64,000 nt of DNA from Maribacter sedimenticola. Lineage in GTDB: Bacteria > Bacteroidota > Bacteroidia > Flavobacteriales > Flavobacteriaceae. The notes beneath the pieces were generated by a model. The model saw only the letters and a list, made by a program, of their open reading frames with translations. It had not been told where the DNA came from and searched no databases. A program made the translations under genes and the position numbers. This document shows, piece by piece, positions 3,261 to 34,847 of this stretch. How positions within the stretch are numbered: position 1 is the stretch's first letter; each line of letters begins with the position of its first letter. Location: positions 461,501 through 525,500 of the forward strand of contig NZ_FZNV01000001.1 in the NCBI RefSeq assembly GCF_900188415.1. The letters are read 5' to 3'.

Positions 3261-3311
3261 CAAAGATAGGAGAACAAGAATTTTTAGCTGTCCTGTAGTG
3301 TTATGGTAGTT
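3261..3311 (-). promoter_or_regulatory. predicted promoter of rhaD-rhaI with shared activator motif
   Basis: On the minus strand ACTACAGGAC (3299-3290) is followed, starting exactly 31 bp after its first base, by TATCTTTG (3268-3261), a perfect match to the Bacteroidota -7 consensus TAnnTTTG. No TTTG -33 element is present at the usual distance; the ACAGG motif occupies that place. The same layout occurs at five PUL promoters in this window. Predicted leader about 25 nt. Confidence 0.7.
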
Positions 3312-3368
3312 TATCCTAATTGATTACTATTTTTATGCTTTATTTAATATAGCGTTAATAATGCCCTA

Positions 3369-3384
3369 TTAGGTTTTTACCTAA
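3369..3384. promoter_or_regulatory. small inverted repeat in the rhaD/gntR divergent region
   Basis: TTAGGT and ACCTAA flank a TTTT loop, 45 bp before the gntR start. It may be an autoregulatory operator or a leader hairpin. It is short and AT-rich, so chance is possible. Confidence 0.25.
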
Positions 3385-3428
3385 ATTATCCAACATCTTT
3401 TAATCTATTAATTTCCAGAAACAATAGA

Positions 3429-4475
3429 ATGGCCGAGCACTTGAATATAGTAATAAATGAATCTTCTAGAGTACCTAAATACAAGCAAATTGTAGAATCT
3501 ATTATTGCGGATATTTCAAAAGGCAAATTAAAGATCGGTCATAAAATACCATCTATTAATGAATTGAGCGAGTATTGCGACCTTTCTAGGGATACCGTAG
3601 AAAAGGCTTACAGGGAATTAAAAAATAGAAAGGTCATTGTATCGGTCAAGGGTAAAGGGTTCTATACTGCCAAAACGGACTTGATTTCCAAAATCAATGT
3701 TTTCTTTCTGATCAATAAACCTAGCTCCTATAAAATGCGTATTTACAACTCGTTCGTTGATGGTATTGGGGTAGATGGTCATGTAACCTTATCTATTTAC
3801 CATTGTGATGAAACCCTGTTTGCGTTGGAGATTCAAAAGAATTTAGGATCGTTTGACTATTATGTGATCATGACCCATTTTAAAAATGAGCGGTTAGAGC
3901 ATGTAAGTTATACGGATAATACCTTAAAGGAATTGGAACGTATTCCAAAGGATAAATTGATTATACTGGATAATGATAAGCCCGAAATAAAGGGGAATTA
4001 CGGCGCTATTTACCAAGATTTTCAACAGGATATTTATAGTGCCTTAAAAGAAGGTATAGAAAAGCTTAAGAAGTATGATAAGCTTATTCTGGTCTATCCT
4101 CAAAAATCTGTTTTTCCATATCCTAGAAGAATTTTAAGAGGGTTTGTCCAATTCTGTGGCGAGTACAATTTTGACCATGAAATTTTGGATGAAATCTATG
4201 AGGACATGGAGTTGAGCAGTAGGGATGTTTATATTACCATAGAGGAAATGGACCTTGTTAAATTGGTGCAGCAAGTAAACGCAAAAGAATTGACCCTGGG
4301 CAAGGATATTGGTATTATTTCCTATAATGATACCCCTTTAAAAAGTTTGCTGGGCATTACCGTAATCAGTACGGATTTTAAGACCATGGGAGAGACTGCT
4401 GCCTATATGGTGCTAAAGAATAAAAAAGAAAAGGTAAAGAATGTATTTAAATATATTGAGCGGAATTCTGTTTAG
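3429..4475 (+). CDS. GntR-family transcriptional regulator with LacI-like sensor domain
   Basis: 348 residues. Positions ~12-78 form a GntR winged helix (PKYKQIVESIIADI, then IPSINELSEYCDLSRDTVEKAY and GKGFYTA). Residues ~85-345 look like a periplasmic-binding-protein/LacI-type effector domain (GIISYNDTPLKSLLGITVISTDF near the end), the architecture known from B. subtilis AraR. It sits between the rhamnose catabolic genes (divergent, 199 bp apart) and the first PUL operon (83 bp downstream). It is the only DNA-binding regulator encoded inside the PUL, so it is the prime candidate for reading the shared CAGCATAGTACAGGAT promoter motif, with rhamnose or a rhamnose derivative as effector. That role is inferred; whether it activates or represses cannot be read from the sequence. 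Confidence 0.88.
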   Translation: MAEHLNIVINESSRVPKYKQIVESIIADISKGKLKIGHKIPSINELSEYCDLSRDTVEKAYRELKNRKVIVSVKGKGFYTAKTDLISKINVFFLINKPSSYKMRIYNSFVDGIGVDGHVTLSIYHCDETLFALEIQKNLGSFDYYVIMTHFKNERLEHVSYTDNTLKELERIPKDKLIILDNDKPEIKGNYGAIYQDFQQDIYSALKEGIEKLKKYDKLILVYPQKSVFPYPRRILRGFVQFCGEYNFDHEILDEIYEDMELSSRDVYITIEEMDLVKLVQQVNAKELTLGKDIGIISYNDTPLKSLLGITVISTDFKTMGETAAYMVLKNKKEKVKNVFKYIERNSV

Positions 4476-4493
4476 TGCTTAAGGTGGTATAGG

Positions 4494-4544
4494 CCTAAGC
4501 CGTATAGTACAGGATGGCATATCTATAAATCACTATTATTTTTA
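4494..4544 (+). promoter_or_regulatory. predicted promoter of the CE12-GH2-CE12 operon
   Basis: AGTACAGGAT at 4506-4515 is followed by TATTTTTA at 4537-4544, i.e. the -7-like box starts 31 bp after the first base of the motif, as at the other five sites. The upstream half (CCTAAGCCGTAT) is the most divergent of the six. Predicted transcription start is ~4550, leaving only a ~9-nt leader before the TTG start. Confidence 0.6.
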
Positions 4545-4558
4545 GAAAAAATAGACGA

Positions 4559-5881
4559 TTGATTAGTTTACTAATAAATTCAAAAAAACGTATTGTAGCG
4601 TTTATAACCGTAGTAGTTTCATTTGTTGCAAATGGACAAACTGAAGATATCCCTACAAATTTTGTTTTTGGTACTCCTATTGCTAATACAGAATATACGG
4701 TAGTAGATTCAAGCCAGCCCTATACAGAACAATTAGGTTATGGGTTTGATTTTAACACGTCCAAAAATGTGCAGTTTCATCATAACGGTTTCAGTATAGA
4801 CAGGGCCCCGGTTTACTTTTCTGTCATGAAGCCGGAAGGAAATTACAAGGTCAAAATTGATTTTGAAGGGGCGGAGTCTGCAACTACTATCATCTTAAAA
4901 GCAGAATCCAGAAGGTTAATGTTAGATACTATAATTGGCCCAAACACCACGTTTTCCAAATCTGTAATGATCAACGTAAGAACGCCAAAAATAATCGGTG
5001 GAGGTGAGATTACTCTAAAGGATAGGGAGTTGACCTATTTAAATTGGGACCGTAAATTAACCTTGGAATTTTTAGGAACTGCCAAGGTAAGAGCAATTCA
5101 GGTTACGCCAATACCGAAAATTACCAGTATTTTTTTAGCCGGTGACTCTACCGTTACCGACCAAGATTTAGAACCTTGGGCCTCTTGGGGGCAATTTATA
5201 TCCCGCTATTTAACAGATCGCGTTGTAGTTTCTAACTATGCCTATTCCGGGGCTTCATTGAGCTCTTTTAAAGTGAGTCGTCGATTGGAGAAAATAGGCT
5301 CCTTGTTGACGAAGGGCGATTATCTTTTGATAGAATTTGGACATAATGACCAGAAGCAGAAAGGGGAAAATGATGGTCCATGGCTCAACTATACAAAGTT
5401 GTTAGTGGAATTCGTTAATACAGCGCGGGAAAAAGGAGCAATCCCCGTTCTATTGACTCTGGTCCAAAGACGATATTTTGGTGAGGATGGGAAGTTGAAC
5501 GATACTCATGGCGAATACCCAGATGCAGTACGTTCAGTTGCTAAAAAGATGAACGTTCCTTTGATAGACCTTACAAAAATTACCACTATGCTTTATGAAA
5601 GTTGGGGTGATGATCGTTCTAGAAAAGCGTTTGTACAATATCCGGCAAATACATTTCCCGGCCAGAACACAGCCTTGGAAGACAATACCCATTTCAATGC
5701 ATTTGGCGCTAATGAAATTGCGTTGTGCGTCATTCAAGAAATTAAAAGACAAGGCCTACCATTAGAAGTATTTTTAAAGCACACAATCCCTGCTTATAAT
5801 CCTGAATTTCCAAATGATATTTCTCAATGGACCTTGCCACTTAGCAATCGATTTGAACCTACAAAGCCAGACGGAAATTAA
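4559..5881 (+). CDS. rhamnogalacturonan acetylesterase-like SGNH hydrolase (CE12-like) with N-terminal accessory domain
   Basis: 440 residues, probably secreted: a Lys/Arg-rich N-terminus and hydrophobic stretch ending at NGQ (~residue 27). Residues ~30-185 are a beta-rich, galactose-binding-like module. Residues ~190-400 are an SGNH/GDSL esterase with block I GDSTV (Ser197), the oxyanion block GHND (261-264) and the terminal DNTHF (Asp375, His378). These match CE12 enzymes that remove acetyl groups from rhamnogalacturonan. The frame contains no ATG near the start; the TTG at 4559 is used here because an upstream in-frame stop lies at 4526-4528 and a start further in would lose the signal peptide. 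It is first in a three-gene operon with the GH2 (13 bp later). Esterase class is firm; the substrate rests on family and context. Confidence 0.82.
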   Translation: MISLLINSKKRIVAFITVVVSFVANGQTEDIPTNFVFGTPIANTEYTVVDSSQPYTEQLGYGFDFNTSKNVQFHHNGFSIDRAPVYFSVMKPEGNYKVKIDFEGAESATTIILKAESRRLMLDTIIGPNTTFSKSVMINVRTPKIIGGGEITLKDRELTYLNWDRKLTLEFLGTAKVRAIQVTPIPKITSIFLAGDSTVTDQDLEPWASWGQFISRYLTDRVVVSNYAYSGASLSSFKVSRRLEKIGSLLTKGDYLLIEFGHNDQKQKGENDGPWLNYTKLLVEFVNTAREKGAIPVLLTLVQRRYFGEDGKLNDTHGEYPDAVRSVAKKMNVPLIDLTKITTMLYESWGDDRSRKAFVQYPANTFPGQNTALEDNTHFNAFGANEIALCVIQEIKRQGLPLEVFLKHTIPAYNPEFPNDISQWTLPLSNRFEPTKPDGN

Positions 5882-5894
5882 ATAGAAGTCAATA

Positions 5895-8750
5895 ATGAAG
5901 AACAATTTTTTCCTATTCCTAAGTGCTCTTTTGAGCTTAATACTAGTGAACGCTCAAGAAACCGAAAAAATATATCTTTCAGGTGTTGATTTTGAACATC
6001 CTGTACAGTGGGACTTTATGGTAAACGGAGGTAGGAACAGTAATCAGTGGTCTACCATAAATGTGCCTTCACATTGGGAATTTGAGGGTTTTGGAGAATA
6101 TACCTATGGTAGATGGTACAAAGAATTAGACCAGGACGAACCCAGTAAGGAAGAAGGTTTTTACAAACATACGTTTATGGTGCCAGCTTCCATGGAAGGA
6201 AAAAAGGTAGAGATAGTTTTTGGTGGAGCCATGACCGATACCGAAGTAAAAATCAATGGTAAAAGTGCAGGTGAAATACACCAAGGCGGCTTCTATGAGT
6301 TTTCGTACGATATCACCTCTTTATTAAATTATGGGGATGATAATCTGTTAGAAGTTCATGTGTCCAAACATTCTGCAAATGCTTCAGTAAACGCTGCCGA
6401 ACGAAAGGCAGATTGGTGGTTGTTCGGAGGAATATATCGCCCTGTGTGGTTATCGGTGTCGCCAAAAACGCATATTGCTCATGTAGCCATTGATGCACAA
6501 ATGGATGGTACGGTCACATCAGAATTGACTGTAGAGAATTTTTCGCAAATGGGCAGTATGGAGGTCTTTTTGACCAAAGTGAACAGTACTGAAAAAATGG
6601 GGAGCGAAGTGTTTATCCTCAATCCAAAAAAATCATCTTTTAATCTCAAAACCAAATTCAGCGATATTGACCCATGGTCTCCTGAAACCCCTAATTTATA
6701 TGACCTTCATTTCAGTTTACAACAAAATGGGGAGACCGTTCATAATGTTACCAAAAGAATTGGATTTAGAACCCTGGAATTCATTAAAAAAGACGGCATT
6801 TATGTAAATGGAAAGAAAATTATTATGAAGGGTATCAACAGGCATACCATTTGGCCAGAGTCCGGTAGAAGTACCAGTAAACGTATTAGTATAATGGATG
6901 CTAACCTGTTGAAGGATATGAATATGAATGCGGTGCGTAATCACTATCCGCCAGATACCCATTTTTTAGAAGCCTGTGATTCTTTGGGGCTTTTTGTGTT
7001 AGATGAATTGGCAGGATGGCAAAACGGCTATGATACTGAAGTAGGCACAAAATTGGTTACCGAAATGGTTCGGAGAGATGTTAATCATCCATCGGTGCTT
7101 ATTTGGGACCATGGCAATGAAGGCGGGTGGAATTATGAATTAGACCCATTATTTAAAGAATTAGACCCCCAAGATAGGATTGTAATACACCCGTGGTCAG
7201 ATTTTGATGGTTGGGATACGCACCATTATCCCGCTTACCAAACTGGGGTGCATCGATTTGTAAATGGGGAGAATGTATTTTTTCCCACCGAGTTCATGCA
7301 CGGTACGTATGATAACGGACATGGCGCCGGACTAGAGGATTTTTGGAACCATTTTAAGGAGAGTCCACTTTTTGCTGGCGGATTCATGTGGGCTTTTAGC
7401 GATGCCGCTGTGTTGAGAAGCGATTGGAAAGGACAAGAGCACGTGTATGACTCAAAAGGTTCATTGGCACCCGACGGAATTTTAGGTCCGCATCGTGAAA
7501 AGGAGGGTAGTTTTTTTACGGTTAAAGAAGTTTGGGCTCCCATACAATTTGCTCCTGTAAAAATCACCAAAAAGTTCGACGGTACTTTCTATATCACCAA
7601 CGATTATATATATTCAAATTTAAACTCAACTTCATTAAAATACCGTGTTGTACAAGCAGCGAAAAATGCCTTTTATTCAAATAGTTCCCCTAAAATCATT
7701 GAGAGCGGTACACTTAAGGCTCCAAATTTAGAGCCTAAAGAAACCGGTAAGTTGATGATGCCTATTTCTAATAGTTTTTTTGAAGGTGATTGGCTTGAGA
7801 TTACGGCGCACGACCGGCATAATAGAGAAATTTATACATGGTCATGGCCTATTCATGATGCTCCTTACTATGCCCAAAGATTCTTGTCCGTTACAAATGA
7901 AAAAACTGTGGCCAAGGTCATGAAATCTGGAAATGAAATACTATTAACAGGTGGCGGCGTAACCATAAAATTGGATGCAGAAAGCGGAAAAATTAAAAGT
8001 GTATCGAATAAGAAAGAAATGATCCCTTTTAATAATGGTCCAGAACCTATAGGGATGAAAGCAGGTGTAAAAAGTGTAGATACGTATACAGACGGGCAAA
8101 ATGCTGTTTGTCTAGTGAATTATACCGGAGGCATCCACTCCATAAAATGGACCATGTACCCAGATGGTCGCTTGCATATGGAAATGATAGCGCTCAAAAA
8201 CGCTGGAAGAAACAGTGGTTTTGATGGTGCCTTTGTAGACGATAATATTAGCGCATTTGGTATTTCGTTCAATTTTCCAGAAGATGGAGTAGAGGGCATT
8301 AAATGGTTGGGTAGAGGACCTTACCGTGTATGGAAAAATAGGATAAAAGGAACTACCTACGGACTTTGGGAAAAGGAATATAACAATACCATTACGGGCG
8401 AAAGTTTTGAAAATTTGATTTATCCTGAATTTAAAGGCTATCATGCCAATATGTACGCCGCTGCTTTAATGGCTAATAACCATGGTTTTAAGGTGTTCAG
8501 TGAATCTGAAAAGGTTTTTCTCCGTTTATTCACACCAGAAGAACCTAAAAATGGGTTTCCGGGCAGTCACCCTCAACCGGAATTTCCATCTGGCGATATT
8601 TCCTTTTTATATGAAATACCGGCCATGCGCTCTTTTAAACCTTTAGCACATCATGGGCCGCATAGTCAGCCGGCCAGTATCCGCATTAAAAGTGGCGATG
8701 AAGGCATTCCCATGAACCTATGGTTCGATTTTAGACCTCAAACCAATTAA
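5895..8750 (+). CDS. GH2 family glycoside hydrolase (beta-galactosidase-like), secreted
   Basis: 951 residues with a signal peptide (hydrophobic to ~residue 20, ending NAQ). Residues ~35-190 are the sugar-binding jelly-roll, ~195-295 the immunoglobulin-like domain, and ~300-560 the TIM barrel, with GNEGGW (acid/base Glu409) and PTEFMHG (nucleophile Glu466). Residues ~690-945 resemble the C-terminal beta-sandwich domain of large GH2 beta-galactosidases (GRGPYRVWKNR). A GH2 in such a locus would trim beta-linked galactose or a uronic acid from side chains; which one cannot be told. It sits between two acetylesterase genes, with its stop 2 bp before the next start, so it is almost certainly co-transcribed with them. 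Confidence 0.9.
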   Translation: MKNNFFLFLSALLSLILVNAQETEKIYLSGVDFEHPVQWDFMVNGGRNSNQWSTINVPSHWEFEGFGEYTYGRWYKELDQDEPSKEEGFYKHTFMVPASMEGKKVEIVFGGAMTDTEVKINGKSAGEIHQGGFYEFSYDITSLLNYGDDNLLEVHVSKHSANASVNAAERKADWWLFGGIYRPVWLSVSPKTHIAHVAIDAQMDGTVTSELTVENFSQMGSMEVFLTKVNSTEKMGSEVFILNPKKSSFNLKTKFSDIDPWSPETPNLYDLHFSLQQNGETVHNVTKRIGFRTLEFIKKDGIYVNGKKIIMKGINRHTIWPESGRSTSKRISIMDANLLKDMNMNAVRNHYPPDTHFLEACDSLGLFVLDELAGWQNGYDTEVGTKLVTEMVRRDVNHPSVLIWDHGNEGGWNYELDPLFKELDPQDRIVIHPWSDFDGWDTHHYPAYQTGVHRFVNGENVFFPTEFMHGTYDNGHGAGLEDFWNHFKESPLFAGGFMWAFSDAAVLRSDWKGQEHVYDSKGSLAPDGILGPHREKEGSFFTVKEVWAPIQFAPVKITKKFDGTFYITNDYIYSNLNSTSLKYRVVQAAKNAFYSNSSPKIIESGTLKAPNLEPKETGKLMMPISNSFFEGDWLEITAHDRHNREIYTWSWPIHDAPYYAQRFLSVTNEKTVAKVMKSGNEILLTGGGVTIKLDAESGKIKSVSNKKEMIPFNNGPEPIGMKAGVKSVDTYTDGQNAVCLVNYTGGIHSIKWTMYPDGRLHMEMIALKNAGRNSGFDGAFVDDNISAFGISFNFPEDGVEGIKWLGRGPYRVWKNRIKGTTYGLWEKEYNNTITGESFENLIYPEFKGYHANMYAAALMANNHGFKVFSESEKVFLRLFTPEEPKNGFPGSHPQPEFPSGDISFLYEIPAMRSFKPLAHHGPHSQPASIRIKSGDEGIPMNLWFDFRPQTN

Positions 8751-8752
8751 AT

Positions 8753-10264
8753 ATGCATACGATTAAATCAGTCCTATTAGTTGTTTTTTCTAGTGTACTA
8801 TTTGTGCAATGTACCTCTTCAAGTATTGAGAAACCTACCGTTTATATGGTAGGAGATTCTACGGTTAAGAACGGACAAGGGGATGGTGCTGGCGGACTAT
8901 GGGGGTGGGGAGATTTTATTGGCCAGTTTTTAGATAGTACAAAGGTGAATGTCGAAAACCATGCATTGGGGGGCACTAGCAGTAGAACGTTTCAAGATTT
9001 AGGACTTTGGGATTCGGTACACCGTAAACTGAACAAAGGAGATTATGTGTTGATTCAATTTGGGCATAATGATGATGGGCCAATAAATGATGATTACAGG
9101 GCGCGTGGTACTATCAAGGGAATCGGTAATGAATCGGAAGAGATTGATAATATACTCACCGGTAAACATGAAATTGTACATTCCTATGGATGGTATATAC
9201 GAAAAGTAGTAACAGAAGCGAAAGAGAAAGGTGCCATCCCTATTGTATTATCGCCTATTCCAAGAAATAAATGGAACGAAGGCAAAGTGCCTTTAAATAA
9301 TACCTCTTATGGTCTGTGGGCGAAACAGATAGCACAAGAAGAACAAGTGACCTTCATAGATTTGAATACGAAGATGGCCCAGAAAATGGAATCCATAGGT
9401 GAAACAGATATCACGGGAACTTATTTCTACGAACACGACCATACGCATACCAGTGCAAAAGGGGCAGTCATGGCAGCAGAAGTCATTATTGAAGCATTGA
9501 AGAAATCATCCAATTCTTTAGCTGATTTTATATTGGGAAACCCTTTGGTCAAGTTGCCTAAAAAACGGAATTTATTTTTGGTGGGCGATTCTACTATGGC
9601 AGATAACGGTGATGAAAATGCCGTAGGCTGGGGTGTTCCTTTTCCTATTCATTTTGATACGACACGAATACATATAATCAATAAAGCAAGGGGAGGTAGA
9701 AGCTCAAGAACATTTATGTATGAAGGATTATGGGACAGTGTATTAAAACAAGTACAACCAAAGGATTTTGTATTGCTTCAATTTGGACATAATGATGCCG
9801 GAAATATAGCAAGGGCAAAATACAGAGGTTCCTTAAAGGGAATTGGAGATGAATTACAAGAAGTAGTGCGGCCTGATAGTATGTTAGAAACCGTTCATAC
9901 TTTTGGCTGGTACATGAAAAAATATATACGGGATACCAAGGCGAAAGGAGCTCTGCCTATTGTACTAAGTTTAACGGTGCGTAATGAATGGCCGGGTGGT
10001 ATTGTTGAGCAACGGACGGATTCATATATAAAATGGGCACGGGAAGCTGCGAAAGCAGAAAATGCCATTTTCTTGGATATTAGTGATAGTTTAGCAATTA
10101 AATATGGTGAATTGGGTAAAGAAAAAGTTAATGCATTTTTCCCAAAAGACCACACGCATACCGGGGCTAAGGGGGCGGCATTCAATGCAAGAATCATTGC
10201 CCAAAGCTTACGAAACTGTTCCACTTGTGGATTAAGGGAATTTATTTTACCTATTAAGGATTGA
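8753..10264 (+). CDS. tandem-domain SGNH acetylesterase (two CE12-like domains), lipoprotein
   Basis: 503 residues with a lipoprotein signal (LFVQC, Cys20). There are two complete SGNH esterase units in one chain. Unit 1 (~28-250) has GDSTVKNG (Ser36), QFGHNDDG and HDHTHTSAKG. Unit 2 (~275-500) has GDSTMADNG, QFGHNDAG and KDHTHTGAKG. Both retain Ser, Gly, Asn and Asp/His, so both look active. The family is the rhamnogalacturonan/pectin acetylesterase group CE12, which normally has one such domain or a different accessory domain. It is the last gene of the operon and ends only 4 bp from the convergent GH115 gene. The duplicated units differ enough to be an old duplication, perhaps specialised for different acetyl positions (inference). 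Confidence 0.85.
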   Translation: MHTIKSVLLVVFSSVLFVQCTSSSIEKPTVYMVGDSTVKNGQGDGAGGLWGWGDFIGQFLDSTKVNVENHALGGTSSRTFQDLGLWDSVHRKLNKGDYVLIQFGHNDDGPINDDYRARGTIKGIGNESEEIDNILTGKHEIVHSYGWYIRKVVTEAKEKGAIPIVLSPIPRNKWNEGKVPLNNTSYGLWAKQIAQEEQVTFIDLNTKMAQKMESIGETDITGTYFYEHDHTHTSAKGAVMAAEVIIEALKKSSNSLADFILGNPLVKLPKKRNLFLVGDSTMADNGDENAVGWGVPFPIHFDTTRIHIINKARGGRSSRTFMYEGLWDSVLKQVQPKDFVLLQFGHNDAGNIARAKYRGSLKGIGDELQEVVRPDSMLETVHTFGWYMKKYIRDTKAKGALPIVLSLTVRNEWPGGIVEQRTDSYIKWAREAAKAENAIFLDISDSLAIKYGELGKEKVNAFFPKDHTHTGAKGAAFNARIIAQSLRNCSTCGLREFILPIKD

Positions 10265-12710: not shown

Positions 12711-12717
12711 ATGTTTA

Positions 12718-14862: not shown

Positions 14863-14883
14863 TTTCTACAGTTTTTAATGCGT

Positions 14884-22063: not shown

Positions 22064-22100
22064 TTTTAAAACTAACTGCAACAAAGTCATTAGTTGCTCT

Positions 22101-23678
22101 TTAATAACCAGGGTTTTGTCCTAGTTTATTGTTCGATTCCAATGCGGTTTTTGGAATAGGATAAATGGTTCTAAACGGCTCTGATACTTCTTTAAATTCC
22201 CACGCATCTCCAAATTTTCCAAATCTGATCAAATCCCTTCTTCTGGACATTTCAAATGCAAGCTCCCTACCTCTTTCATCCAATATGTCGTCTAGGGTAA
22301 CCGCATCTAAAGGTTCAGCATTACTACGCTCACGAATTTCGTTTACGAGTGGTAAGGCGGCGGCAAAATCATTGCTTCTTGCCAATGCCTCCGCTTTGAT
22401 CAATAATATATCGGCATATCTTATAAAGGCAATATCATTGCCTGCATTACCTCCATTAGTATTTGGGTCCAAGCCCCATTTAATCCACTTAATTCCTGCG
22501 TTCATAGGTTGTAATCTAATTCCGGTTGCAGGTATAATATTGTAAGGAACAGGTCCCTCAGTAGATTTACCTGGAACATATAATGTAGAATTGTTATCTG
22601 GCACAACTCGCTCAACCATTACAACCTCTCCTGTGGTAGGGTCTACCAAATCACCATAACCTATAAACATGTCTTTTCTAACATCTTCGTCTTCATAAAG
22701 AGCGAGTACCGATGGTCTAGTGCCAAACCCATTTTGAGGTGTATACGGTAAGCCGAACAGCCCACCTTGAATACCTGGCAGCACTTTTTGTACCAAAGGA
22801 TGACCAATTCCACCGGCAATATCTGGTGAGTACACAGCACCAAAAATAAATTCATCGTTATTGCTATTATCAAATGTAAAGTTGTCAAAATATTCTGGTA
22901 ACAATCTGTAGGCGTTTGAGTTGATTACCAAATCTGCATATTCGATAGCTTTATCATTTTGGGCAGTTCCCGTATATACCTCTGCATTTAAATAAATTGT
23001 CGCCAGCATAGCTTGGGCAGCTTCTTTGGTAAATCGTCCAAAATAAGCATCACCTGCTTCTGCTTTGGCAGGTAGGTCCTCAGCGGCCGCTATAAACTCT
23101 GAGGTTACAAAATCAAAAACTTCTGCCCTTGTGTTTTGCTCGGGCAAGTTCAATGCATCAACTTTTGGTAAGGTAAAGATGGGAACATTACCAAATAAAT
23201 CCATCAAGAAGAAATAGGCATAGGCCCTTAAAGCTCTAAGTTCAGCAATGGGACCCGCAATTTCTTCAGGAGACAAAGCAGAACCTTCCAAGGATGCTAT
23301 TAAGGCATTTGTTTGGCCTACGGTCTTAAAATAGGAATCCCAAGTACCCGCTACATATGCGTGATCTTCTTGCCATTTATGTTCCATTAATTCGCTAAAA
23401 TTAGCACCGCCCCACCAGCCTTGTATTTTTTCATGTACGACTACCTGATCAGCAGGTAATTCCAGACATCTATATTCTACGCCCATACCTGTTGTGGCGG
23501 CAAAGTTTCTATATACACCCGAAAGCGATGAAAGAACTTGAGATTCGTTCGAATAAAATGTTTCTGGCGTATAAATGGAATATACATCTTCTTCTAGACT
23601 ACAACCTGATGTTCCTATGATAAGCATACCCATAACTGTCAGTTGTATGAATCGATAAAAGTTTGTTGATTTTTTCAT
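22101..23678 (-). CDS. SusD/RagB-family glycan-binding lipoprotein (pair 1)
   Basis: 525 residues from the ATG at 23678 (MKKSTNF); the longer start at 23708 is less likely. Lipoprotein signal ending in GTSGC, followed by SLEEDVY, an acidic stretch like surface-export signals of Bacteroidota. Typical SusD features: STPETFY-like N-terminus, AELRALRAYAYFFLMDLFGNVP, RYADILLIKAEALAR and RRRDLIRFGKFGDAWE, ending PIPKTALESNNKLGQNPGY. It forms the lid of the outer-membrane SusC/D importer and binds oligosaccharides. It starts 32 bp after SusC pair 1. Confidence 0.96.
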   Translation of the reverse strand: MKKSTNFYRFIQLTVMGMLIIGTSGCSLEEDVYSIYTPETFYSNESQVLSSLSGVYRNFAATTGMGVEYRCLELPADQVVVHEKIQGWWGGANFSELMEHKWQEDHAYVAGTWDSYFKTVGQTNALIASLEGSALSPEEIAGPIAELRALRAYAYFFLMDLFGNVPIFTLPKVDALNLPEQNTRAEVFDFVTSEFIAAAEDLPAKAEAGDAYFGRFTKEAAQAMLATIYLNAEVYTGTAQNDKAIEYADLVINSNAYRLLPEYFDNFTFDNSNNDEFIFGAVYSPDIAGGIGHPLVQKVLPGIQGGLFGLPYTPQNGFGTRPSVLALYEDEDVRKDMFIGYGDLVDPTTGEVVMVERVVPDNNSTLYVPGKSTEGPVPYNIIPATGIRLQPMNAGIKWIKWGLDPNTNGGNAGNDIAFIRYADILLIKAEALARSNDFAAALPLVNEIRERSNAEPLDAVTLDDILDERGRELAFEMSRRRDLIRFGKFGDAWEFKEVSEPFRTIYPIPKTALESNNKLGQNPGY

Positions 23679-23710
23679 GATTTTTTTATTAATGTTTTTA
23701 TAGACCATCC

Positions 23711-26695: not shown

Positions 26696-26711
26696 AATTA
26701 AAGGTTGATTT

Positions 26712-26725
26712 TGTAATCGATTGCA
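26712..26725. promoter_or_regulatory. near-palindromic operator candidate in susC (pair 1) leader
   Basis: TGTAATCGATTGCA, nearly its own reverse complement, ~6-19 nt downstream of the predicted transcription start. The same 14-mer with one change lies at the same place before the second susC. Form and position fit a LacI-type repressor operator. Confidence 0.5.
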
Positions 26726-26736
26726 TTTCTGGTGTT

Positions 26737-26787
26737 CTAAATTATTGATTACAATTAGGGTTGGCATCCTGTACTTGCCTGAGAATT
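26737..26787 (-). promoter_or_regulatory. predicted promoter of susC/susD pair 1 and downstream enzymes
   Basis: Minus-strand motif TCTCAGGCAAGTACAGGAT (core AGTACAGGAT at 26775-26766), with TAATTTAG (26744-26737) starting 31 bp after the first core base. Predicted start of transcription ~26731, leader ~36 nt. Confidence 0.68.
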
Positions 26788-26939: not shown

Positions 26940-28883
26940 CTAATAACCCGGATTTTGCATGGCTTGTTTTTCATCTGCTGTCAAGGTTCTACCTTCGGTA
27001 TATATACCGTCCAAGAATGTCTGGGGTATAGGTCTTAATACATGATGGTCCTTAATATTTGGTGCAGCTTCAGGGTTAAACGCAATAGTTCTTTCAACCA
27101 AGGTCAATGTTCTGCTCAAATCTTCCCATCGGTGCCATTCCCCACAAAGTTCCCTTGTACGTTCATTTAATACTAGGTTCAACATACGGTCATATTCACC
27201 ACTAATACCTAATTTGTTGAAAATTGCTTCATCTTCCGCTGGTAAATTATTGATGTCCGTAATGGTAAGGTCAGTGGCATCCGTAGTTACAGGAATATTG
27301 TTGGATTCATAGTATGAATTTTCCTTTATGTATGAATTATCCTCTACCGGTTGGCTGAATTCGGATGTTGGGTAAGCCTCGGCACCATCGGTATAAAATG
27401 CCCTGTCCTCACCATTTTTATAAGCGCCCCTATTTCTTACGGCATTGATATAATCCAGACCTTCACCATAAGCGCCCATTCTTATTTTTGCCTCTGCGGC
27501 CATTAGATAGGTTTCTGCCGATCTGGCTAAAATCTCATCACGTAAGCCCCTGTTATCATTTATGGAACTTCTTGATGAATCAAAATGCTTGGATAAAGAA
27601 GGAAATCTAGGGTTTGGCAATAAACCAACACCATCTTCCGCATAGGCAACATATACATGGGGTATGGTCTTGCCATTGTATAGTATGTCTGGATTATTGT
27701 TGTTTATCGTAAGGTCAAAACGGTCATCATCTGGTGTATTTATAATATACATAATTCCCAAGTCCTCCCCTGCGGTATACTCCACGCCATCAAAAACACC
27801 ACCTCTGTTTACCCTGTGTTTGGTTCTAAAGGTTTTCCAGAACCGCGAATCGTTGACATGATCAAAAACATCATACGTAAAATAGGTGGCGGCCAGTCGA
27901 CTATAGGGCCTCATACCTGTTAAATCTCTTTTCATCATGGGTAGATCATCATACCTTGCGGTAAACGGAACGGTGCTAAAATTAGAAGTTGCCAATGACC
28001 TATCCCTACTAAACTGTGCGGAAAGTATTAGTTCAGGTAAAAACTCATTGGGACCGTCCGGTTCCGTATAGTCCCATAATTCTTGATAATTGGCAGCTAA
28101 CGGATGGTTGGCGATTACTTCATCGGACAATCTTACAACAGCCTGTAGATCTGCCGTTTTTGTTTCTCCGTTCCAAGAATCGTTGATTTCGCTTGCTCTG
28201 GTCAAATAAGCCTTTGCCAAATAATGTGCTGCGGCATCCTTACTGATCTGTGCCGGAAAAACGACGGCATTGTCCAGTAGTTCATACGCCTTAGTGAAAT
28301 CCTCTATTACCTGTGCTAGTACTTCTTCTGCAGATGCCCTGGTAAATTCAAGTTCCACTGTGGTACTTACGGTTAACTTTAATGGTACCCCGCCATACTG
28401 TCTTACTAATTTTAAATAATTATAGGCTCTTAGGAAATGTGCCTCGCCCAATGCCGTTTTCTTGACTGCTGGATTATCTGAGTCTATGGCGTTTATAGAC
28501 TCGATCAATTGGTTGGTCATGGCTATACCAGCATAAAAGTTATCCCATGGCTCCTCAGCTTGTGTACGTGTGGTGATGACTACAGAGTTGAACCTGCTGT
28601 CATAATTGTTCCACGGACTATTGGTGTCATCCCCGCCAACATGAAACTCGTCGGTTCCATAATTGGTGGTGGCAAATTGCTGTTCTGAAGGAAATGTCGA
28701 TGCCAAAACCTTATAAGTTGCCCCTGTCGCCAAGGAAAGAATACCTTCTTCCGTTTCAAAAAATTCGTTGCTTCGCTGTGTGGTCAGTTCTTCTTCCAAA
28801 AAATCGTCACTACAAGAACTAAGGTACCCTACTAGCAGTAATGCGGTACATATGTTAACAATGTGTTTTTTATAATTTTTCAT
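26940..28883 (-). CDS. SusD/RagB-family glycan-binding lipoprotein (pair 2)
   Basis: 647 residues, longer than the first SusD. Lipoprotein signal ending GYLSSC, then SDDFLEEEL, a strongly acidic surface-export-like stretch. SusD hallmarks: LGEAHFLRAYNYLKLVRQYGGVP, ETYLMAAEAKIRMGAYGEGLDYINAVRNR and LNERTRELCGEWHRWEDLSR, ending QAMQNPGY. Cell-surface partner of SusC pair 2, 32 bp downstream of it. The extra ~120 residues relative to pair 1 suggest a different binding surface and therefore a different oligosaccharide. Confidence 0.96.
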   Translation of the reverse strand: MKNYKKHIVNICTALLLVGYLSSCSDDFLEEELTTQRSNEFFETEEGILSLATGATYKVLASTFPSEQQFATTNYGTDEFHVGGDDTNSPWNNYDSRFNSVVITTRTQAEEPWDNFYAGIAMTNQLIESINAIDSDNPAVKKTALGEAHFLRAYNYLKLVRQYGGVPLKLTVSTTVELEFTRASAEEVLAQVIEDFTKAYELLDNAVVFPAQISKDAAAHYLAKAYLTRASEINDSWNGETKTADLQAVVRLSDEVIANHPLAANYQELWDYTEPDGPNEFLPELILSAQFSRDRSLATSNFSTVPFTARYDDLPMMKRDLTGMRPYSRLAATYFTYDVFDHVNDSRFWKTFRTKHRVNRGGVFDGVEYTAGEDLGIMYIINTPDDDRFDLTINNNNPDILYNGKTIPHVYVAYAEDGVGLLPNPRFPSLSKHFDSSRSSINDNRGLRDEILARSAETYLMAAEAKIRMGAYGEGLDYINAVRNRGAYKNGEDRAFYTDGAEAYPTSEFSQPVEDNSYIKENSYYESNNIPVTTDATDLTITDINNLPAEDEAIFNKLGISGEYDRMLNLVLNERTRELCGEWHRWEDLSRTLTLVERTIAFNPEAAPNIKDHHVLRPIPQTFLDGIYTEGRTLTADEKQAMQNPGY

Positions 28884-28915
28884 GTGTTGTTTATTTTATT
28901 AGTCAAGCTGATTTT

Positions 28916-31900
28916 TTAAAATTCTACGTTCATTCCTACGGTGAAACCTCTATTGGATGCAGAGTTACCAAGGGAGTATCCTTGAGAGTTATTGGCCGGT
29001 CTTGTAACATCTAGATCGATCCAATCAACTTTTGAGAAAATAAAACCGGGATTTTGGGCCTGTACATAAAAACGTAGTTTGGATAGTCCAATATCACTCG
29101 TAATTTTTTGTGGTAAATTATATCCTAAGGATACGTTTCTTACCTTAATAAAAGAACCGCTTCTATAACCTAACGTGCCAAAATAAGTGTCCCCGAAACC
29201 TGCAGAATAGATGGGTTTCTGATATTCAGAATCTGTATTGTTAGGCGTGTAATAATCTACTTTTCTAGAATTATATCTACCTACCAAACCTTCACCGCCA
29301 GTGTTATAGGTATAACCAAAACGTCCAAATAGGAAGAACGAAAGCTCTAGGTCCTTATATTTAAAGGTATTTGTAAGGCCTAAAATATATTTTGGAATAG
29401 TATTGCCTATGATTACCCTATCATTGTTCGCATCAATTACATAATCGCCATTTTGATCTACCGGACGGGCATTACCAGGTGAAAAGGTATGTCCGTTAGC
29501 ATTGAACAATGCAATTTCCGCAGCATCTGATTCCTGCCATATACCATTGGATGCATAACCATAGATTACGCCCAATGATTCCCCAATGAACCAATTGTTG
29601 TTGATGTCGTCTTCCTTGCCATTGGCCAGCTCAACAATTTCATTTTCTTGCCAAGATGCACTGATATCCGTAGACCATTGAAAATCCTCTGTTCTAACGT
29701 TTACCGTATTCAGGGTCAAATCTATACCGTTGCTTTTTGTTTCCCCAACATTGGCAAATGTATTGATATACCCAGTAATTGATGGAATTGATTTTCTAAG
29801 CAATAGGTCCGTAGTATTGGAGGTATAGTAATCCATGCTTCCGGATACTCTGCCTGTAAAAAAGGAAAAATCCAACCCATAATTGTATTGTGTGGTTTTT
29901 TCCCAGCCCAGTTCTTGATTGGCAAGTGTTTCATCTAATTGTACGCCAGAAACAGCTGTTGATCCTACAGGATAGAATAGGGGAAGTAGTCCTCCTTTTG
30001 TGGAGTATGCGTCTATAGCGGCATTACCCGTAACACCTACACCTGCCCTAAGTTTTAGCTGATCGATCCAGTTAGAGTCGGCAAGAAAATTTTCCTGATC
30101 TATACTCCAACCTAAGGCAGCACTTGGGAAGAAAGCACCTTTGTTTCCTTCGGCCAACTGAGAAGCACCGTCATACCTTCCAGATACGGTCAGTAAATAT
30201 TTATTATCGAAACCATAGTTTAAACGGGCCATATATGAAAGCAATTGCCTTTCGGTTAAATCAGAATCATAACTTGAGAGTGCAACGTTATCGGCACTAA
30301 GAGCGTTCCATTTTTGACTCGCAAAGGGGATATTGTCCGCTGCCATAAAATTGGACTCTTCAATGAATTGGGTCTGACTTTGTAAAAGTGTTGCACCAAG
30401 GTCATGTTTTCCAAATGTCCTGTTATAGAGCAAAAGGTTGTCCAAGGTATAGGATAATCGTTGTCTCTTACGTAAAGCGGCATAACTGGAACCAGTTCTT
30501 ATGACCGATTGACCATCTAAATAGCTGCCATTTCTATAGGTTTCTATATCCGGACCAAAGTTTGTCCTGAATTTTAGTCCTTCCCAGGCAGAACCAAATG
30601 CCCCAAAATCTAACTGGGCGTAAAAGCTTGCAAAAGCCCTTAGGGTTACCCGTTGGTCCTGTGAATAATCCACCTCGTTAATAATGGTCTTTACCGCAAT
30701 GTCCCCGCCTGGGAATTCAATTCTATTGCCTTCACTATCATAAGGGAGCGTATATTGAAAAATAGACCTTGCACTTTGGTAAAGTCCACTTTGGGCCGAA
30801 ACACCTACGTTACCTGAAGTGGATTGTCCATATTCCTGAGTACTGTAGGAGGTATTGATATTTCCTCCAAATGTAAACCACTCCGTAGGTGTCAACTCAA
30901 CGCTAACGTTGGCATTGTAACGCTCGTAACTTTGGCCCACTACACTACCGGTGTTATTGATATACCCAAACGAACCGTACGCCTTCATTTTTTCAGAACC
31001 ACCACTGGCACTTAGGGTATGTTGATTTGTAAACCCTGTTTGGGTTACAAAATCGGTAAAATCGGTCGTGATTAATTTGGTACCGTCCCAGGTGCCACCT
31101 TCCCAACCTCTTAGAATGTTGTTGAATGCCGTATCATCACCAGAAAAAATGGCCTCGTCATTTGCAATAGTGGGTTGGTCGCCTCTAGGGAAAGTGTCAG
31201 GGTTTTCATAATATTTGGCCCATCTTCTATATTCCACAAATTCACCTGCGTTAAACTGTGGTGCTGCTTCGTTCAGGGTCTGGGTCGTTATTGCCGTATT
31301 ATAGCTTAAGGTAAACCGCCCTGATTTTCCTCTTTTGGTAGTTACGATTACAACACCGTTTGCACCACGTGAACCATAAATGGCCGTTGCGGATGCATCC
31401 TTTAAAATATCGATAGATTCAATATCCGTAGGATTTATATTATCTATTCCACCGGATATAAGCGGAATACCGTCCAATACATAAAGAGGGGCGTTAGACG
31501 CAGAAAGCGATCGTTGTCCCCTAATGGTAATACTTCCTATACTACCTGGTCGTTCATTGGATGAAATATCAACACCTGCGGCCTTTCCTTGCATAGCCTC
31601 AATGGCATTGTTTACGGGCCTTGAGTTGATATCTTCAGAGGATACACTAACTATTGATCCCGTAACATCTGATTTTTTAGTGGTACCATACCCTACGACG
31701 ACAACTTCGTCCAAAAGGGCACTATCTTCTTCCATAGAAATGTCATAGGTGGAATTTGCACCTATTAAAAGTTCCAAGGGCTTATACCCAATAGAGCTGA
31801 ACACCAATGTTTGGCCTGCCGATGCGTCAATGGAATATTCTCCGTCAAAATTTGCACTGGTACCTGTATTGGTACCTTTTATAACAATATTTACACCCGG

Positions 31901-32029
31901 TAGAGGAATACCGGAATTATCGGTAATTACGCCCGATATGGTTTTTTCCTGGGCACTAATACCCAGCGAAATCAAGAAAAAACATAAGAACAATGTTTTT
32001 TTGAAATTAAGTCGATTTAAGTTTTTCAT
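28916..32029 (-). CDS. SusC/RagA-family TonB-dependent outer-membrane transporter (pair 2)
   Basis: 1037 residues. Signal peptide ending LGISAQ, carboxypeptidase-regulatory-like domain (ISGVITDNSGIPLPGVNIV), TonB box region (LDEVVVVGYGTT), plug (IEAMQGKAAGVDISS, KDASATAIYGSRGANGV) and barrel to the C-terminal Phe. No STN domain. With the partner SusD it forms a second importer in the same locus, transcribed from its own promoter and closed by its own terminator at 26880-26902. It therefore forms a two-gene unit independent of the enzyme operon. Confidence 0.96.
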   Translation of the reverse strand: MKNLNRLNFKKTLFLCFFLISLGISAQEKTISGVITDNSGIPLPGVNIVIKGTNTGTSANFDGEYSIDASAGQTLVFSSIGYKPLELLIGANSTYDISMEEDSALLDEVVVVGYGTTKKSDVTGSIVSVSSEDINSRPVNNAIEAMQGKAAGVDISSNERPGSIGSITIRGQRSLSASNAPLYVLDGIPLISGGIDNINPTDIESIDILKDASATAIYGSRGANGVVIVTTKRGKSGRFTLSYNTAITTQTLNEAAPQFNAGEFVEYRRWAKYYENPDTFPRGDQPTIANDEAIFSGDDTAFNNILRGWEGGTWDGTKLITTDFTDFVTQTGFTNQHTLSASGGSEKMKAYGSFGYINNTGSVVGQSYERYNANVSVELTPTEWFTFGGNINTSYSTQEYGQSTSGNVGVSAQSGLYQSARSIFQYTLPYDSEGNRIEFPGGDIAVKTIINEVDYSQDQRVTLRAFASFYAQLDFGAFGSAWEGLKFRTNFGPDIETYRNGSYLDGQSVIRTGSSYAALRKRQRLSYTLDNLLLYNRTFGKHDLGATLLQSQTQFIEESNFMAADNIPFASQKWNALSADNVALSSYDSDLTERQLLSYMARLNYGFDNKYLLTVSGRYDGASQLAEGNKGAFFPSAALGWSIDQENFLADSNWIDQLKLRAGVGVTGNAAIDAYSTKGGLLPLFYPVGSTAVSGVQLDETLANQELGWEKTTQYNYGLDFSFFTGRVSGSMDYYTSNTTDLLLRKSIPSITGYINTFANVGETKSNGIDLTLNTVNVRTEDFQWSTDISASWQENEIVELANGKEDDINNNWFIGESLGVIYGYASNGIWQESDAAEIALFNANGHTFSPGNARPVDQNGDYVIDANNDRVIIGNTIPKYILGLTNTFKYKDLELSFFLFGRFGYTYNTGGEGLVGRYNSRKVDYYTPNNTDSEYQKPIYSAGFGDTYFGTLGYRSGSFIKVRNVSLGYNLPQKITSDIGLSKLRFYVQAQNPGFIFSKVDWIDLDVTRPANNSQGYSLGNSASNRGFTVGMNVEF

Positions 32030-32075: not shown

Positions 32076-32126
32076 TGAAATTATATATTAAAGAAATATG
32101 TACTATCCTGTACTTACCTGAGAAAA
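32076..32126 (-). promoter_or_regulatory. predicted promoter of susC/susD pair 2
   Basis: Minus-strand motif TCTCAGGTAAGTACAGGAT (core at 32114-32105), with TAATTTCA (32083-32076) starting 31 bp after the first core base. It shares 18 of 19 bases of the motif with the other susC promoter although the flanks differ. Confidence 0.68.
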
Positions 32127-32285: not shown

Positions 32286-34709
32286 CTATTTTACAATTTT
32301 AACATCTTGAAGTTCATGGGCGGAAACCTCTATCTGTAAAACACCATTGGTATAATTCAATTGAGAAATATTCATGCTATTATTGTTAATGGCAATACTT
32401 GATGGTTTTTTGGATAGATGTATTGTTAAAGTATAGGTGGCAATACTGGAAACATAGGAACCTTTTGGTTGTTGAATTTTAATATGTACGTATTCTTCAG
32501 ATTCTTCAGTCTCTATAATTGTAGTCGCAAATTCGCCACTTGTATAATTTAATGATTTACCATCATCTGCATATAATGTAAAAGCACTTTTTCCTTTAGG
32601 GTATAGGTGTAGGTCAATATTGGTAATCTCATTTTCACCTATATAGTTTTGAGATTTTTGCATCGGTATTATCGCTCCTCCCTTTATGAAAATCGGAATT
32701 TGGTCCAATGGGCAAAGAACACTAATATGTTGTTTTCCTTGAAACACTTCTTTGGTCCAATAATTTGTCCATTCGCCTTCTGGTAGATAAACAACTCTGG
32801 TTTTTGCGCCTTTATCAACTACAGGGCATACCATCATACTTTCACCCAATAGATACTGGTCTGTAATTTCATATGTATTGGCATCATCTTGATTGTCCAA
32901 TACCAAGGCACGCATTAATGGTTTTCCTGTATTGTGGTTTTGGTATGCCGTGCTGTATAAGTACGGAATTAATTGGTATCTAAATTCATCATAGAATTTG
33001 AATATTCGAGTAGCTTCTTCGCCGTAATTCCAAGGCTCTTTATAATTTGGATGCTCCATGCCAAATAAATGCGCGATCGGACTCAATAATCCAAATTGGG
33101 TCCAGCGAATGTATAATTCGGGGTCGGCAACGTGTTCAAATCCTCCCATACAGTGCGCCCAATTACCCACACCGGATAACCCAATGTTTAATCCGGCCTT
33201 GATTACAGGTTCAAAATATTGCCATTCGCTTGGCCAATCTCCCGCAAAAATAAAGGGGTAGCGTTGTATACCGGCATACCCTTCTCGGGTGTGGTTCATT
33301 CCACGAATTTTATTATACTCTTGAAATTTCTCAAATGGTGCTTTAGCGTAGGCCAACGGAAAAAGGTTATGTAACGACTTTATCTCTTCTCCTTGCGGAC
33401 CAACTTTATCACTTTCATTCGCTTTATGTCCAAAAGCACTGCCTTCATCTGTTTTTAAGAACATGGCACCTTGGTCGGCCACATTTTTCACCCCTTCTTT
33501 CCACCACCAATCCACTGATTTTTTATCAAAGAAATTGACAAACTCACCTTCTCCATTTTCTTCGGGATATACATAGCCACCTTTTCGTGCCTTATCCAGC
33601 AATCTATAGGTTTTTCCATTGTCAAAACGTGGGCGTAAATGAAGTCCTACCGCATTTAAGTTCAACGCATATAAACTATCGAACATGGCCTTAGGATTTT
33701 TGAAGGTTTCCCGCCATTCAAAAGTAGTAGCGCCCTTGCCACCATTTTCGCCAAAGAACCTCCAAGTGGAATCTAAGTGCAGCACATCTAAAGGAATACC
33801 TAATGTCCTGAATTTTTTGGCAAGATCAATTACATATTGTGTTGAGGTTTCCGCTTCATGTCCCCATGTGCCTCCGCTATAGGTGCCAACATGTAGTCCC
33901 AGGGCGAATTTAGGTAACAGAGGAGATTTTCCGGTAATGTTGGTATAGGTGTCAAGCAAGGTTGAAAAATCAGGACCATACATTACGTAATAATCCAATT
34001 CACCTCCTTCGGCATTGAAAGAAAAGGTATCATTTGAGCTATGCCCCATATCCCAATTGGTTGGGTGAGCGTTATGCAAGAATAACCCATAGCCTGCAGT
34101 ACTCATGAAAAAAGGTACTGGTGAGTAGTTTGCTTCAAGCGGATTATATGCCCCAATAATGTGCGGTAGCCCTTGACCTCTACCTACATTCAAACGTAGT
34201 TTTTTACCGCGTCGGTCAAGAAAATCCATGCGTTCTCCAAAACCAAAAAAGTGTTCGTCTGGTTGTAGTTTAAAAGTTGTTCCGGTATGTTCACTAGAAG
34301 TATATGAGCTACTGTTATGTTTGTTTTTATGTTCTTCTAAAAGCACTTTTCCGTTCCGGTCTAATATGGAAATCGCAAAAGGTTTCTTGCCAATTTTTAA
34401 TTTAATTTTATCCGTTGAAAATTCGAGTTCTTGATCGTTTTCTTTCTTGTTATAATTTACTTGAGGCCAATCATAGCGGACTACCATCCAAGGTTCGTTC
34501 TCTGCAAATTCCCCGTTCCAAGAAGTTCTAATGCGCGCCGCATCGGTTGAAATAAATTCAATTTTTACTTGACCATTACTAGTCCTTAGTGTTATTTCAT
34601 TACCGGTTTCAGATTGTATTTCTTCAAAGTTGCCTAAAAAAGTTTGTGCAGTGGCGCAAAAACTAAAGGTGAAAATGCAAAAAATAAGAGATAAACGTAA
34701 AAATTTCAT
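32286..34709 (-). CDS. GH31 family glycoside hydrolase, secreted
   Basis: 807 residues from the ATG at 34709 (a TTG two codons earlier is ignored). Signal peptide ending FCATAQ. N-terminal beta-sandwich with FFGFGERMD, catalytic barrel from ~residue 255 with VLHLDSTW, FLKTDEG (nucleophile Asp421) and IFAGDWPSEW (acid/base Asp491), then C-terminal beta domains (LYADDGKSLNY). GH31 members are alpha-glucosidases, alpha-xylosidases, alpha-galactosidases and relatives; the nucleophile motif KTDEG does not settle which. It is a single-gene unit divergent from GH106, with promoters back to back, so it belongs to the PUL regulon. Substrate likely an alpha-linked side-chain sugar (inference). Confidence 0.92.
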   Translation of the reverse strand: MKFLRLSLIFCIFTFSFCATAQTFLGNFEEIQSETGNEITLRTSNGQVKIEFISTDAARIRTSWNGEFAENEPWMVVRYDWPQVNYNKKENDQELEFSTDKIKLKIGKKPFAISILDRNGKVLLEEHKNKHNSSSYTSSEHTGTTFKLQPDEHFFGFGERMDFLDRRGKKLRLNVGRGQGLPHIIGAYNPLEANYSPVPFFMSTAGYGLFLHNAHPTNWDMGHSSNDTFSFNAEGGELDYYVMYGPDFSTLLDTYTNITGKSPLLPKFALGLHVGTYSGGTWGHEAETSTQYVIDLAKKFRTLGIPLDVLHLDSTWRFFGENGGKGATTFEWRETFKNPKAMFDSLYALNLNAVGLHLRPRFDNGKTYRLLDKARKGGYVYPEENGEGEFVNFFDKKSVDWWWKEGVKNVADQGAMFLKTDEGSAFGHKANESDKVGPQGEEIKSLHNLFPLAYAKAPFEKFQEYNKIRGMNHTREGYAGIQRYPFIFAGDWPSEWQYFEPVIKAGLNIGLSGVGNWAHCMGGFEHVADPELYIRWTQFGLLSPIAHLFGMEHPNYKEPWNYGEEATRIFKFYDEFRYQLIPYLYSTAYQNHNTGKPLMRALVLDNQDDANTYEITDQYLLGESMMVCPVVDKGAKTRVVYLPEGEWTNYWTKEVFQGKQHISVLCPLDQIPIFIKGGAIIPMQKSQNYIGENEITNIDLHLYPKGKSAFTLYADDGKSLNYTSGEFATTIIETEESEEYVHIKIQQPKGSYVSSIATYTLTIHLSKKPSSIAINNNSMNISQLNYTNGVLQIEVSAHELQDVKIVK

Positions 34710-34734
34710 ATTCAAAAGTTACAGTGTGATGGGG

Positions 34735-34785
34735 GTAAGTTACAGGTAGAAAATATTGATTGTATCCTGTACTATGCTGTCAGTA
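34735..34785 (-). promoter_or_regulatory. predicted promoter of GH31
   Basis: Minus-strand motif GACAGCATAGTACAGGAT (core at 34773-34764), with TAACTTAC (34742-34735) starting 31 bp after the first core base. Forms an inverted pair with the GH106 motif across 11 bp. Confidence 0.6.
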
Positions 34786-34796
34786 ATTTGATTTTG

Positions 34797-34847
34797 TATT
34801 TTCAGCATAGCACAGGATGGTCATGTTTGTGAATGATGTTATTTTAG
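34797..34847 (+). promoter_or_regulatory. predicted promoter of the GH106 operon
   Basis: TTTTCAGCATAGCACAGGAT (core 34809-34818), with TATTTTAG (34840-34847) starting 31 bp after the first core base. The predicted transcription start falls at or next to the ATG at 34853. Confidence 0.6.

Follow-up and report, generated by a model that had tools for sequence, protein, structure and literature searches.

A fixed-register repeat site upstream of the -7 box marks a predicted rhamnose regulon in Maribacter sedimenticola and its relatives

Polysaccharide utilization loci (PULs) carry much of the carbohydrate use of Bacteroidota. One such locus, rhamnose-linked as judged by Pfam, lies in a stretch of 64,000 nucleotides of the 4.27 Mb genome of Maribacter sedimenticola (contig NZ_FZNV01000001.1, positions 461,501 to 525,500; hereafter the window, to which our coordinates refer), and it raises the question of how genes for rhamnose catabolism and for the release and import of glycan might be turned on together. 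An earlier examination of the letters alone (the sequence-only reading) proposed that six promoters share a motif upstream of the -7 box, always at the same distance and oriented with the gene, and saw in this a rhamnose/PUL regulon under an activator contacting RNA polymerase. The regulon with its one-orientation, fixed-register upstream site is strongly supported by the specificity of the motif in its own genome and by a set of 80 loci from named genomes, and we regard its existence as practically certain. The earlier reading gave the regulator no name; the evidence presented here points to the GntR/LacI-type protein encoded at 3429-4475. The six sites are:

3261-3305, minus strand: rhaEW promoter, CATAACACTACAGGACAG ... 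TATCTTTG, predicted start near 3256, matrix score 28.0, with in-register sites before rhaEW in relatives
4500-4544, plus strand: promoter of the CE12/SGNH-GH2-SGNH operon, by core and matrix, predicted start near 4549
26737-26781, minus strand: promoter of the operon from susC1-susD1 to GH115, by core and matrix, predicted start near 26732
32076-32120, minus strand: susC2-susD2 promoter, by core and matrix, predicted start near 32071
34735-34779, minus strand: GH31 promoter, by core and matrix, predicted start near 34730
34803-34847, plus strand: GH106-GH88/105-BD-FAE-GH78 promoter, by core and matrix, arranged back to back with that of GH31, predicted start near 34852

The cores lie where they had been placed, at 3299 (-), 4506 (+), 26775 (-), 32114 (-), 34773 (-) and 34809 (+), and the predicted starts fall within one base of those given earlier. 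The gene behind the first core, called rhaD in the sequence-only reading, is itself rhaEW (TIGR02632), while the position of its site stands. Counting the first core base as 1, all six sites have TA at 32-33 and TT at 36-37, each is oriented toward its gene, and four of the six carry the upstream CAG that had been described; a C at core position -6, absent from that description, is invariant (6/6). The predicted GH106 start at 34852 is one base ahead of an in-frame ATG at 34853, and this transcript may be leaderless. A seventh core at 43817 (-), ACTACAGGAT with C at -6, lies inside the GH78 coding sequence, has no TA at 32, and is probably due to chance.

Six sites show the complete pattern of C at -6, core and TAnnTT, whereas none arose when the window was simulated 300 times with a first-order Markov model; the bare core ASYACAGGAY, observed seven times, reached a simulated mean of 0.54 (maximum 4). 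Across the whole genome, ASYACAGGA-N22-TAnnTT has eight exact matches, namely the six sites, one inside an open reading frame (ORF) that looks zwf-like by eye, and a match at C11:883517 that has A at position 10; matches with one mismatch are mostly noise, since there are 51 of them against 37 in the reversed control. When C at -6 is required, six exact matches remain, all in the window, and the reversed control has none. A stricter motif with up to three mismatches, applied to find further regulon members in this genome, gave four matches against three reversed and nothing new; two of the four are window sites, and one with two mismatches (C20:64458) sits between ORFs. The motif is therefore not scattered at random: its exact C(-6) form is confined to the window and in other species it tracks rhamnose/PUL genes. 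Among 120 related genomes the C(-6) pattern matched 90 times against 9 in the reversed control, with 77 of the 90 in the 18 genomes that hold two or more.

The register was examined in two sets that overlap in part (Maribacter stanieri, M. antarcticus, Pseudozobellia thermophila and Galbibacter marinus are in both): 40 stretches fetched around the regulator, and the 80 loci in named genomes, which were chosen through the regulator alone and scanned separately. Loci L161-L180, chosen partly through the strict pattern, served for targets and the first matrix and stand outside both register counts. Because the core letters are fixed by construction, conservation at positions 1-10 is not evidence; the informative positions are -6 to -1 (in these two sets and in the 84 non-redundant sites below), 11-12 and 32 onward, with 32-33 fixed for the matrices. 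In the first set, TA stood at exactly 32 in 31 of 39 intergenic cores and TAnnTT in 25, the next-best offsets reaching 10 and 4, respectively (offsets 20-44), and only 2 of 12 ORF-internal cores had TA at 32. The 80 loci yielded TA at exactly 32 in 108 of 123 intergenic cores (30 cores at the next-best of offsets 13-49) and TAnnTT in 103 (7 cores at the next-best of offsets 24-41), with at least one in-register site in 62 loci. Sites occur in many Flavobacteriaceae and also in Lewinella/Neolewinella and Agaribacillus. Within 84 non-redundant sites, the spacer positions 13-31 hold at most 0.10 bit each; since this 19-base spacer is unconserved, the sites are not copied promoters, and we infer that their register is held by selection. 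The earlier remarks that the flanks are otherwise unlike and that simple duplication is no explanation thus hold for the spacer.

The genes that follow the 108 in-register sites, assigned by best BLAST match to window proteins, are rhaEW (48), CE12 (14), sulfatase (7), GH106 (5), SusC (5), GH2 (2) and GH31, DUF4861, GFO_IDH and transporter (one each), with 17 others and six cases in which no gene was found; the sulfatase and SusC matches, at 25-58% identity, are to be read at family level. Sites upstream of rhamnose catabolic genes thus recur across genomes. Six of the 15 out-of-register cores fall before susC-like genes in five loci (L264, L266, L267, L269 and L276), where four consecutive 10 bp units are found and the last CAGGAY unit stands 27 bases before TAnnTT, which is the single-site register. 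For L266 the value of 27 is taken from its TATTTTTG at offset 52, laid out as in the other arrays, the printed figure having concerned a later CAGGAC. The four-unit promoters, with L071/L266 and L079/L276 being the same sites under two labels, are:

Four-unit arrays before susC-like genes: L071 15702, L079 16421, L264 12791, L266 13974, L267 12122, L269 7618, L276 13111

Class II activators sit around -41.5. With the T of TA set at -12, as in F. psychrophilum, where TAnnTTTG is described at -12 to -5 (PMC9723704), the two CAG units span -49 to -34 and are centred at -41.5; by this anchor the sites lie near the class II position, in fixed register and orientation (108/123). Read as a direct repeat of 10 bp, CAGKAYASYA-CAGGAYRS, they occupy -49 to -32, and their second unit covers part of where a -33 box would stand; this repeat structure is supported by the arrays above and by a paired unit change described below. 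An inverted arrangement about core base 1 gave a lower score than a direct shift of 10, all scores being negative. A palindrome in the strongest relatives, CWGTAC-N-GTACWG, was judged the poorer fit, as the direct repeat scores less badly and a change found in sister-type sites alters both units alike.

These sister-type sites accompany a regulator of about 41% identity, with the recognition helix SRDTIVRAY or SRDTVVRAY in place of SRDTVEKAY, that adjoins rhaEW, GH78 or GH106-like genes. They have a CAGAAC-AGTA-CAGAAY-like form with TA still at 32, and unit position 4 is A in 8/8 left and 7/8 right units, compared with 10 of 84 left units of the main type. The eight sister-type sites come from five loci, of which L099 and L100 contribute a single site and L101, L102 and L103 a pair. 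The sister-type matrix included TA at 32; without that requirement, TA at 32 was counted by hand in L139, L140, L141, L155 and L158. The paired change fits one protein that would read each unit, and together with the four-unit arrays it appears to favour a direct repeat over a palindrome. In genome G031 rhaEW is present twice, one copy with a CAGAAC-like site (L194 9516) and the other with a CAGGAT-like one (L193); the co-variation count covered sites with an assigned regulator and so left out L194.

The proposed regulator (3429-4475, plus strand; RhaR-like) combines a GntR winged helix at residues 17-79 (PF00392, E 1.5e-13, 50.6 bits against a cut-off of 27) with a C-terminal sensor domain of the LacI/periplasmic-binding-protein type (PF13377, 35 bits against 26.5). 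Its structural model has a predicted local distance difference test score (pLDDT) of 86.9, and the best fold matches in the PDB are LacI-family proteins (best E 1.1e-12, template modelling score 0.55 by query); its winged helix matches that of AraR (PDB 4EGY; phmmer E 9.5e-8). Twenty named GntR equivalog families of NCBIfam match at E <= 0.001, none over its cut-off. Species of Zobellia are among those in which orthologues were found. It is the sole transcription factor found by Pfam among the 21 proteins of 1133-44295, and the only one recognised in the 28 gene clusters most shared among the 80 loci, which were themselves chosen through the regulator and whose unnamed clusters were not scanned. 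At least two strict sites were present in 17 of 18 genomes with an orthologue of at least 51% identity against 1 of 102 others, the exception (G076) having the variant AGTACGGGAT in register ahead of rhaEW; within the genus (36 genomes) the counts were 13/13 with and 1/23 without an orthologue. Moreover, rhaEW (E <= 1e-150) and a rha-type regulator, as judged by recognition helix and neighbours, occur in the same 25 of the 120 genomes. Another 31 genomes have some regulator match, in 8 of them only short winged-helix matches and in 23 long ones; the aligned long non-rha matches have other helices (LMAF beside galactose genes, VFKAY-like, and IVKAY of a clade at 28% identity). Taken together, linkage and co-variation make it very probable that the protein at 3429-4475 binds the sites.

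Judged from gene order and gaps, six operons start at the six promoters and together contain the 20 PUL and rha genes scanned in 1133-44295, the regulator not being counted among these:

1133-3277, minus strand: RhaEW, bifunctional rhamnulose-1-phosphate aldolase/dehydrogenase (TIGR02632, 941.5 bits, cut-off 567.75); 3277 is the mechanical ORF start and the likely ATG is at 3229
4559-10264, plus strand: operon of SGNH (CE12-like), GH2 and double SGNH (Pfam; CE12 label from the sequence-only reading)
10269-26767, minus strand: susC1, susD1, PL22-like, DUF4861, GH88, sulfatase, GH28, a 714-residue protein and GH115 (Pfam; mechanical ORF starts)
26940-32029, minus strand: susD2 and susC2 (Pfam)
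32286-34715, minus strand: GH31 (Pfam)
34817-44295, plus strand: operon of GH106, GH88/105, BD-FAE esterase and GH78 (Pfam; mechanical ORF starts)

The rha operon goes on beyond the left window edge with L-rhamnose-isomerase-like, rhamnulokinase-like and L-lactate-dehydrogenase-like proteins, an NCS1-like transporter and an esterase; only RhaEW passes a curated cut-off, the others scoring below theirs. The 714-residue protein (12718-14862) has no Pfam family at 1e-5 and a weak, partial match to kojibiose hydrolase, and is possibly an unclassified glycoside hydrolase.

We propose that the adjacent GntR/LacI-type regulator uses the sites as operators and that its LacI-type domain senses rhamnose or an early product of rhamnose catabolism. 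The protein would occupy both repeat units along a single DNA face and, from its class II position, contact sigma region 4 or the alpha subunit, recruiting RNA polymerase to the -7 box TAnnTTnG. One signal would then turn on rhaEW and the downstream isomerase, kinase, lactate-dehydrogenase-like and transporter genes as well as the glycan-releasing enzymes and the two SusCD pairs that import the glycan. The sites, their register and conservation, the link to the regulator gene and the domain architecture are direct observations; binding, activation, polymerase contact and the sugar sensed are what we infer, and we consider the activator model as a whole likely. With a class II activator, orientation, register and position are all accounted for, as is the last-unit rule of the arrays. 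Geometry supports the activator view of the sequence-only reading well. The missing -33 TTTG is weak evidence for it: other TAnnTTTG segments likewise show no enrichment of TTG at that position, so that its absence is uninformative in this group. Weakness of the -7 boxes was likewise dropped as evidence; the full TAnnTTTG occurs in 16% of 69 first-set sites, but G stands at 39 in 63 of 84 sites of the named set.

Several observations weigh against this proposal. The -7 boxes are not uniformly weak, position 38 being T in 58/84 sites in addition to the frequent G at 39, and a rough measure of symmetry was negative throughout, a direct shift of 10 scoring least negative among shifts 3-15. Among the 80 loci, 9 of 24 ORF-internal cores likewise have TA at 32, some of which may be true sites within over-long mechanical ORFs, and 18 loci have no in-register strict core, for part of which contig ends and variant cores may be responsible. 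After removal of the arrays, nine of the 123 cores remain off register; two of these (L235 and L238) stand at 26, one base short. G059, the weakest rha-type assignment, has its regulator about 12 kb from rhaEW, and neither of the two stretches scanned there (L098, L195) yielded a site. The co-occurrence tests, moreover, are not independent, because site, regulator and rhaEW adjoin in related genomes.

Alternatively, the same protein could be a repressor that occupies -49 to -32 as long as sugar is absent and comes off when rhamnose or a derivative binds to it. Family precedent is on the side of repression and counts against our proposal as well: both AusR, a GntR protein of a flavobacterial PUL (PMC8286568, PMC8073546), and AraR (PMC4218819) are described as repressors. 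In addition, promoters of this group show no evident -33 box in any case, and two paralogue clades have repeats in repressor-like places. The galactose clade (34-40% identity), which adjoins galK, galT and galM (named by eye) and is a candidate galactose regulator of Bacteroidota, carries CTAGTAGGGT-CTAGTAGG, or a sequence close to it, as a 10 bp direct repeat ahead of its regulator gene in 10/10 promoters examined (L104, L182-L185, L196-L200), in either orientation, between -53 and -18, near the -7 box. For the 28% clade, divergent from susC, GTAGCATAGT-GTATCATAGT stands around +3 to +22 in 16/16 susC promoters examined (L161 8526-8972 and those of L201-L213, L215 and L217; L214 and L216, with other neighbours, were outside this examination), the conserved GTAGCATAGTGTATCATAGT repeat following closely after TATATTTG, placed like a roadblock operator; these 16 promoters are orthologous and count as few events, and both repeat patterns were written after the sequences had been read. 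From sequence, both placements would look like repression. The rhamnose clade, compared with these paralogues, is locked to a single register and orientation across unrelated promoters. A repressor needs neither one orientation nor a single-base register over promoters with unrelated spacers, the galactose clade illustrating how variable repressor-like placement can be, and it gives no reason for the register of the last unit in four-unit arrays. Repression at the rhamnose sites thus appears unlikely to us.

Still less probable is a different activator, of AraC type or a hybrid two-component protein encoded elsewhere, with the neighbouring GntR protein being incidental. AraC proteins often activate beside RNA polymerase. 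The RhaR of Bacteroides is of this type, and predicted AraC-type rha sites are described as direct repeats with a 21 bp period (PMC3870299). Against such an activator stand the single transcription factor among the 21 proteins scanned, the change of unit that follows the GntR recognition helix, and the 10 bp repeat grammar shared by the paralogues. PULs can also be run by pairs of extracytoplasmic function (ECF) sigma and anti-sigma factors, and the fixed distance to the downstream box would suit a long -35-like element of such a sigma factor. A 16-base repeat whose far end is at -49 and which leaves a gap of some 21 bases is, however, unlike the usual ECF -35/-10 pair, no sigma gene was found by Pfam among the 21 PUL proteins, and the downstream element is a TAnnTTTG-type box, as used by the primary sigma factor (PMC9723704), so that we give this explanation almost no credence. 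Chance resemblance or promoter duplication, to which the back-to-back GH31 and GH106 sites with their identical left unit CAGCAT might point, is refuted by the simulations, the reversed controls in 120 genomes and the uninformative spacer.

Returning to the GntR/LacI-type activator, the clades suggest a broader reading whose chances we judge to be evenly balanced: a GntR/LacI-type family of Bacteroidota would read 10 bp direct-repeat operators with a base code for each unit, and the placement of the array would set the sign, repressor-like where it lies downstream of the -7 box or varies, activating where it is locked at -41.5 as in the rhamnose clade. If true, activators and repressors arose from one another through relocation of the same kind of array, and one regulator family offers a natural comparison of activator-like and repressor-like placements. 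In one more stretch (L301 6262-7320, minus strand), a homologue with 38% identity adjoins xylose-isomerase-like and kinase-like genes (named by eye); it is perhaps a xylose member of the same family. The predicted rhamnose regulon can be read from sequence alone across the taxa named above, and the pattern CAGKAYASYACAGGAYRS-N19-TAnnTT is usable for finding rhamnose-linked PUL genes.

Several known regulators invite comparison. AraR follows a plan of GntR plus LacI-type sensor, FucR has the same domain plan and represses, the sensor domain of NanR differs from the LacI type, and AusR (the subject of Dudek et al. 2020) reportedly carries a sensor domain of LacI type and has operators that are single, double or triple. 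The regulators in a survey of B. thetaiotaomicron are described as hybrid two-component, SusR-like, AraC, LacI, GntR, NrtR, ROK and Crp proteins (PMC3878776). No GntR-type rhamnose regulator of Bacteroidota was found in the literature searched, which did not extend to regulon databases such as RegPrecise. Like the rhamnose regulators of Rodionova et al. 2013, the present one would be a local regulator of rhamnose catabolism with repeat operators, in some of their groups including RhaEW, but their twelve groups belong to the AraC, DeoR or LacI family, and the word GntR is absent from the main text (PMC3870299). FucR and ManR of Bacteroides are likewise GntR-family sugar regulators in Bacteroidota, for other sugars (PMC3878776). 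NanR of E. coli is a GntR-type protein on tandem repeats, but it is described as a repressor whose repeats are less than half a turn apart (PMC8012715). AraR of Bacillus subtilis (PDB 4EGY) shares the GntR winged helix and represses on palindromes (PMC4218819), whereas 10 bp direct repeats fit better here. Finally, AusR of Zobellia galactanivorans, compared by description, is like the regulator proposed here a GntR-family regulator of a flavobacterial PUL; it represses alginate genes (PMC8286568, PMC8073546), whereas the locus of M. sedimenticola presents a rhamnose regulon with an activator-like fixed site.

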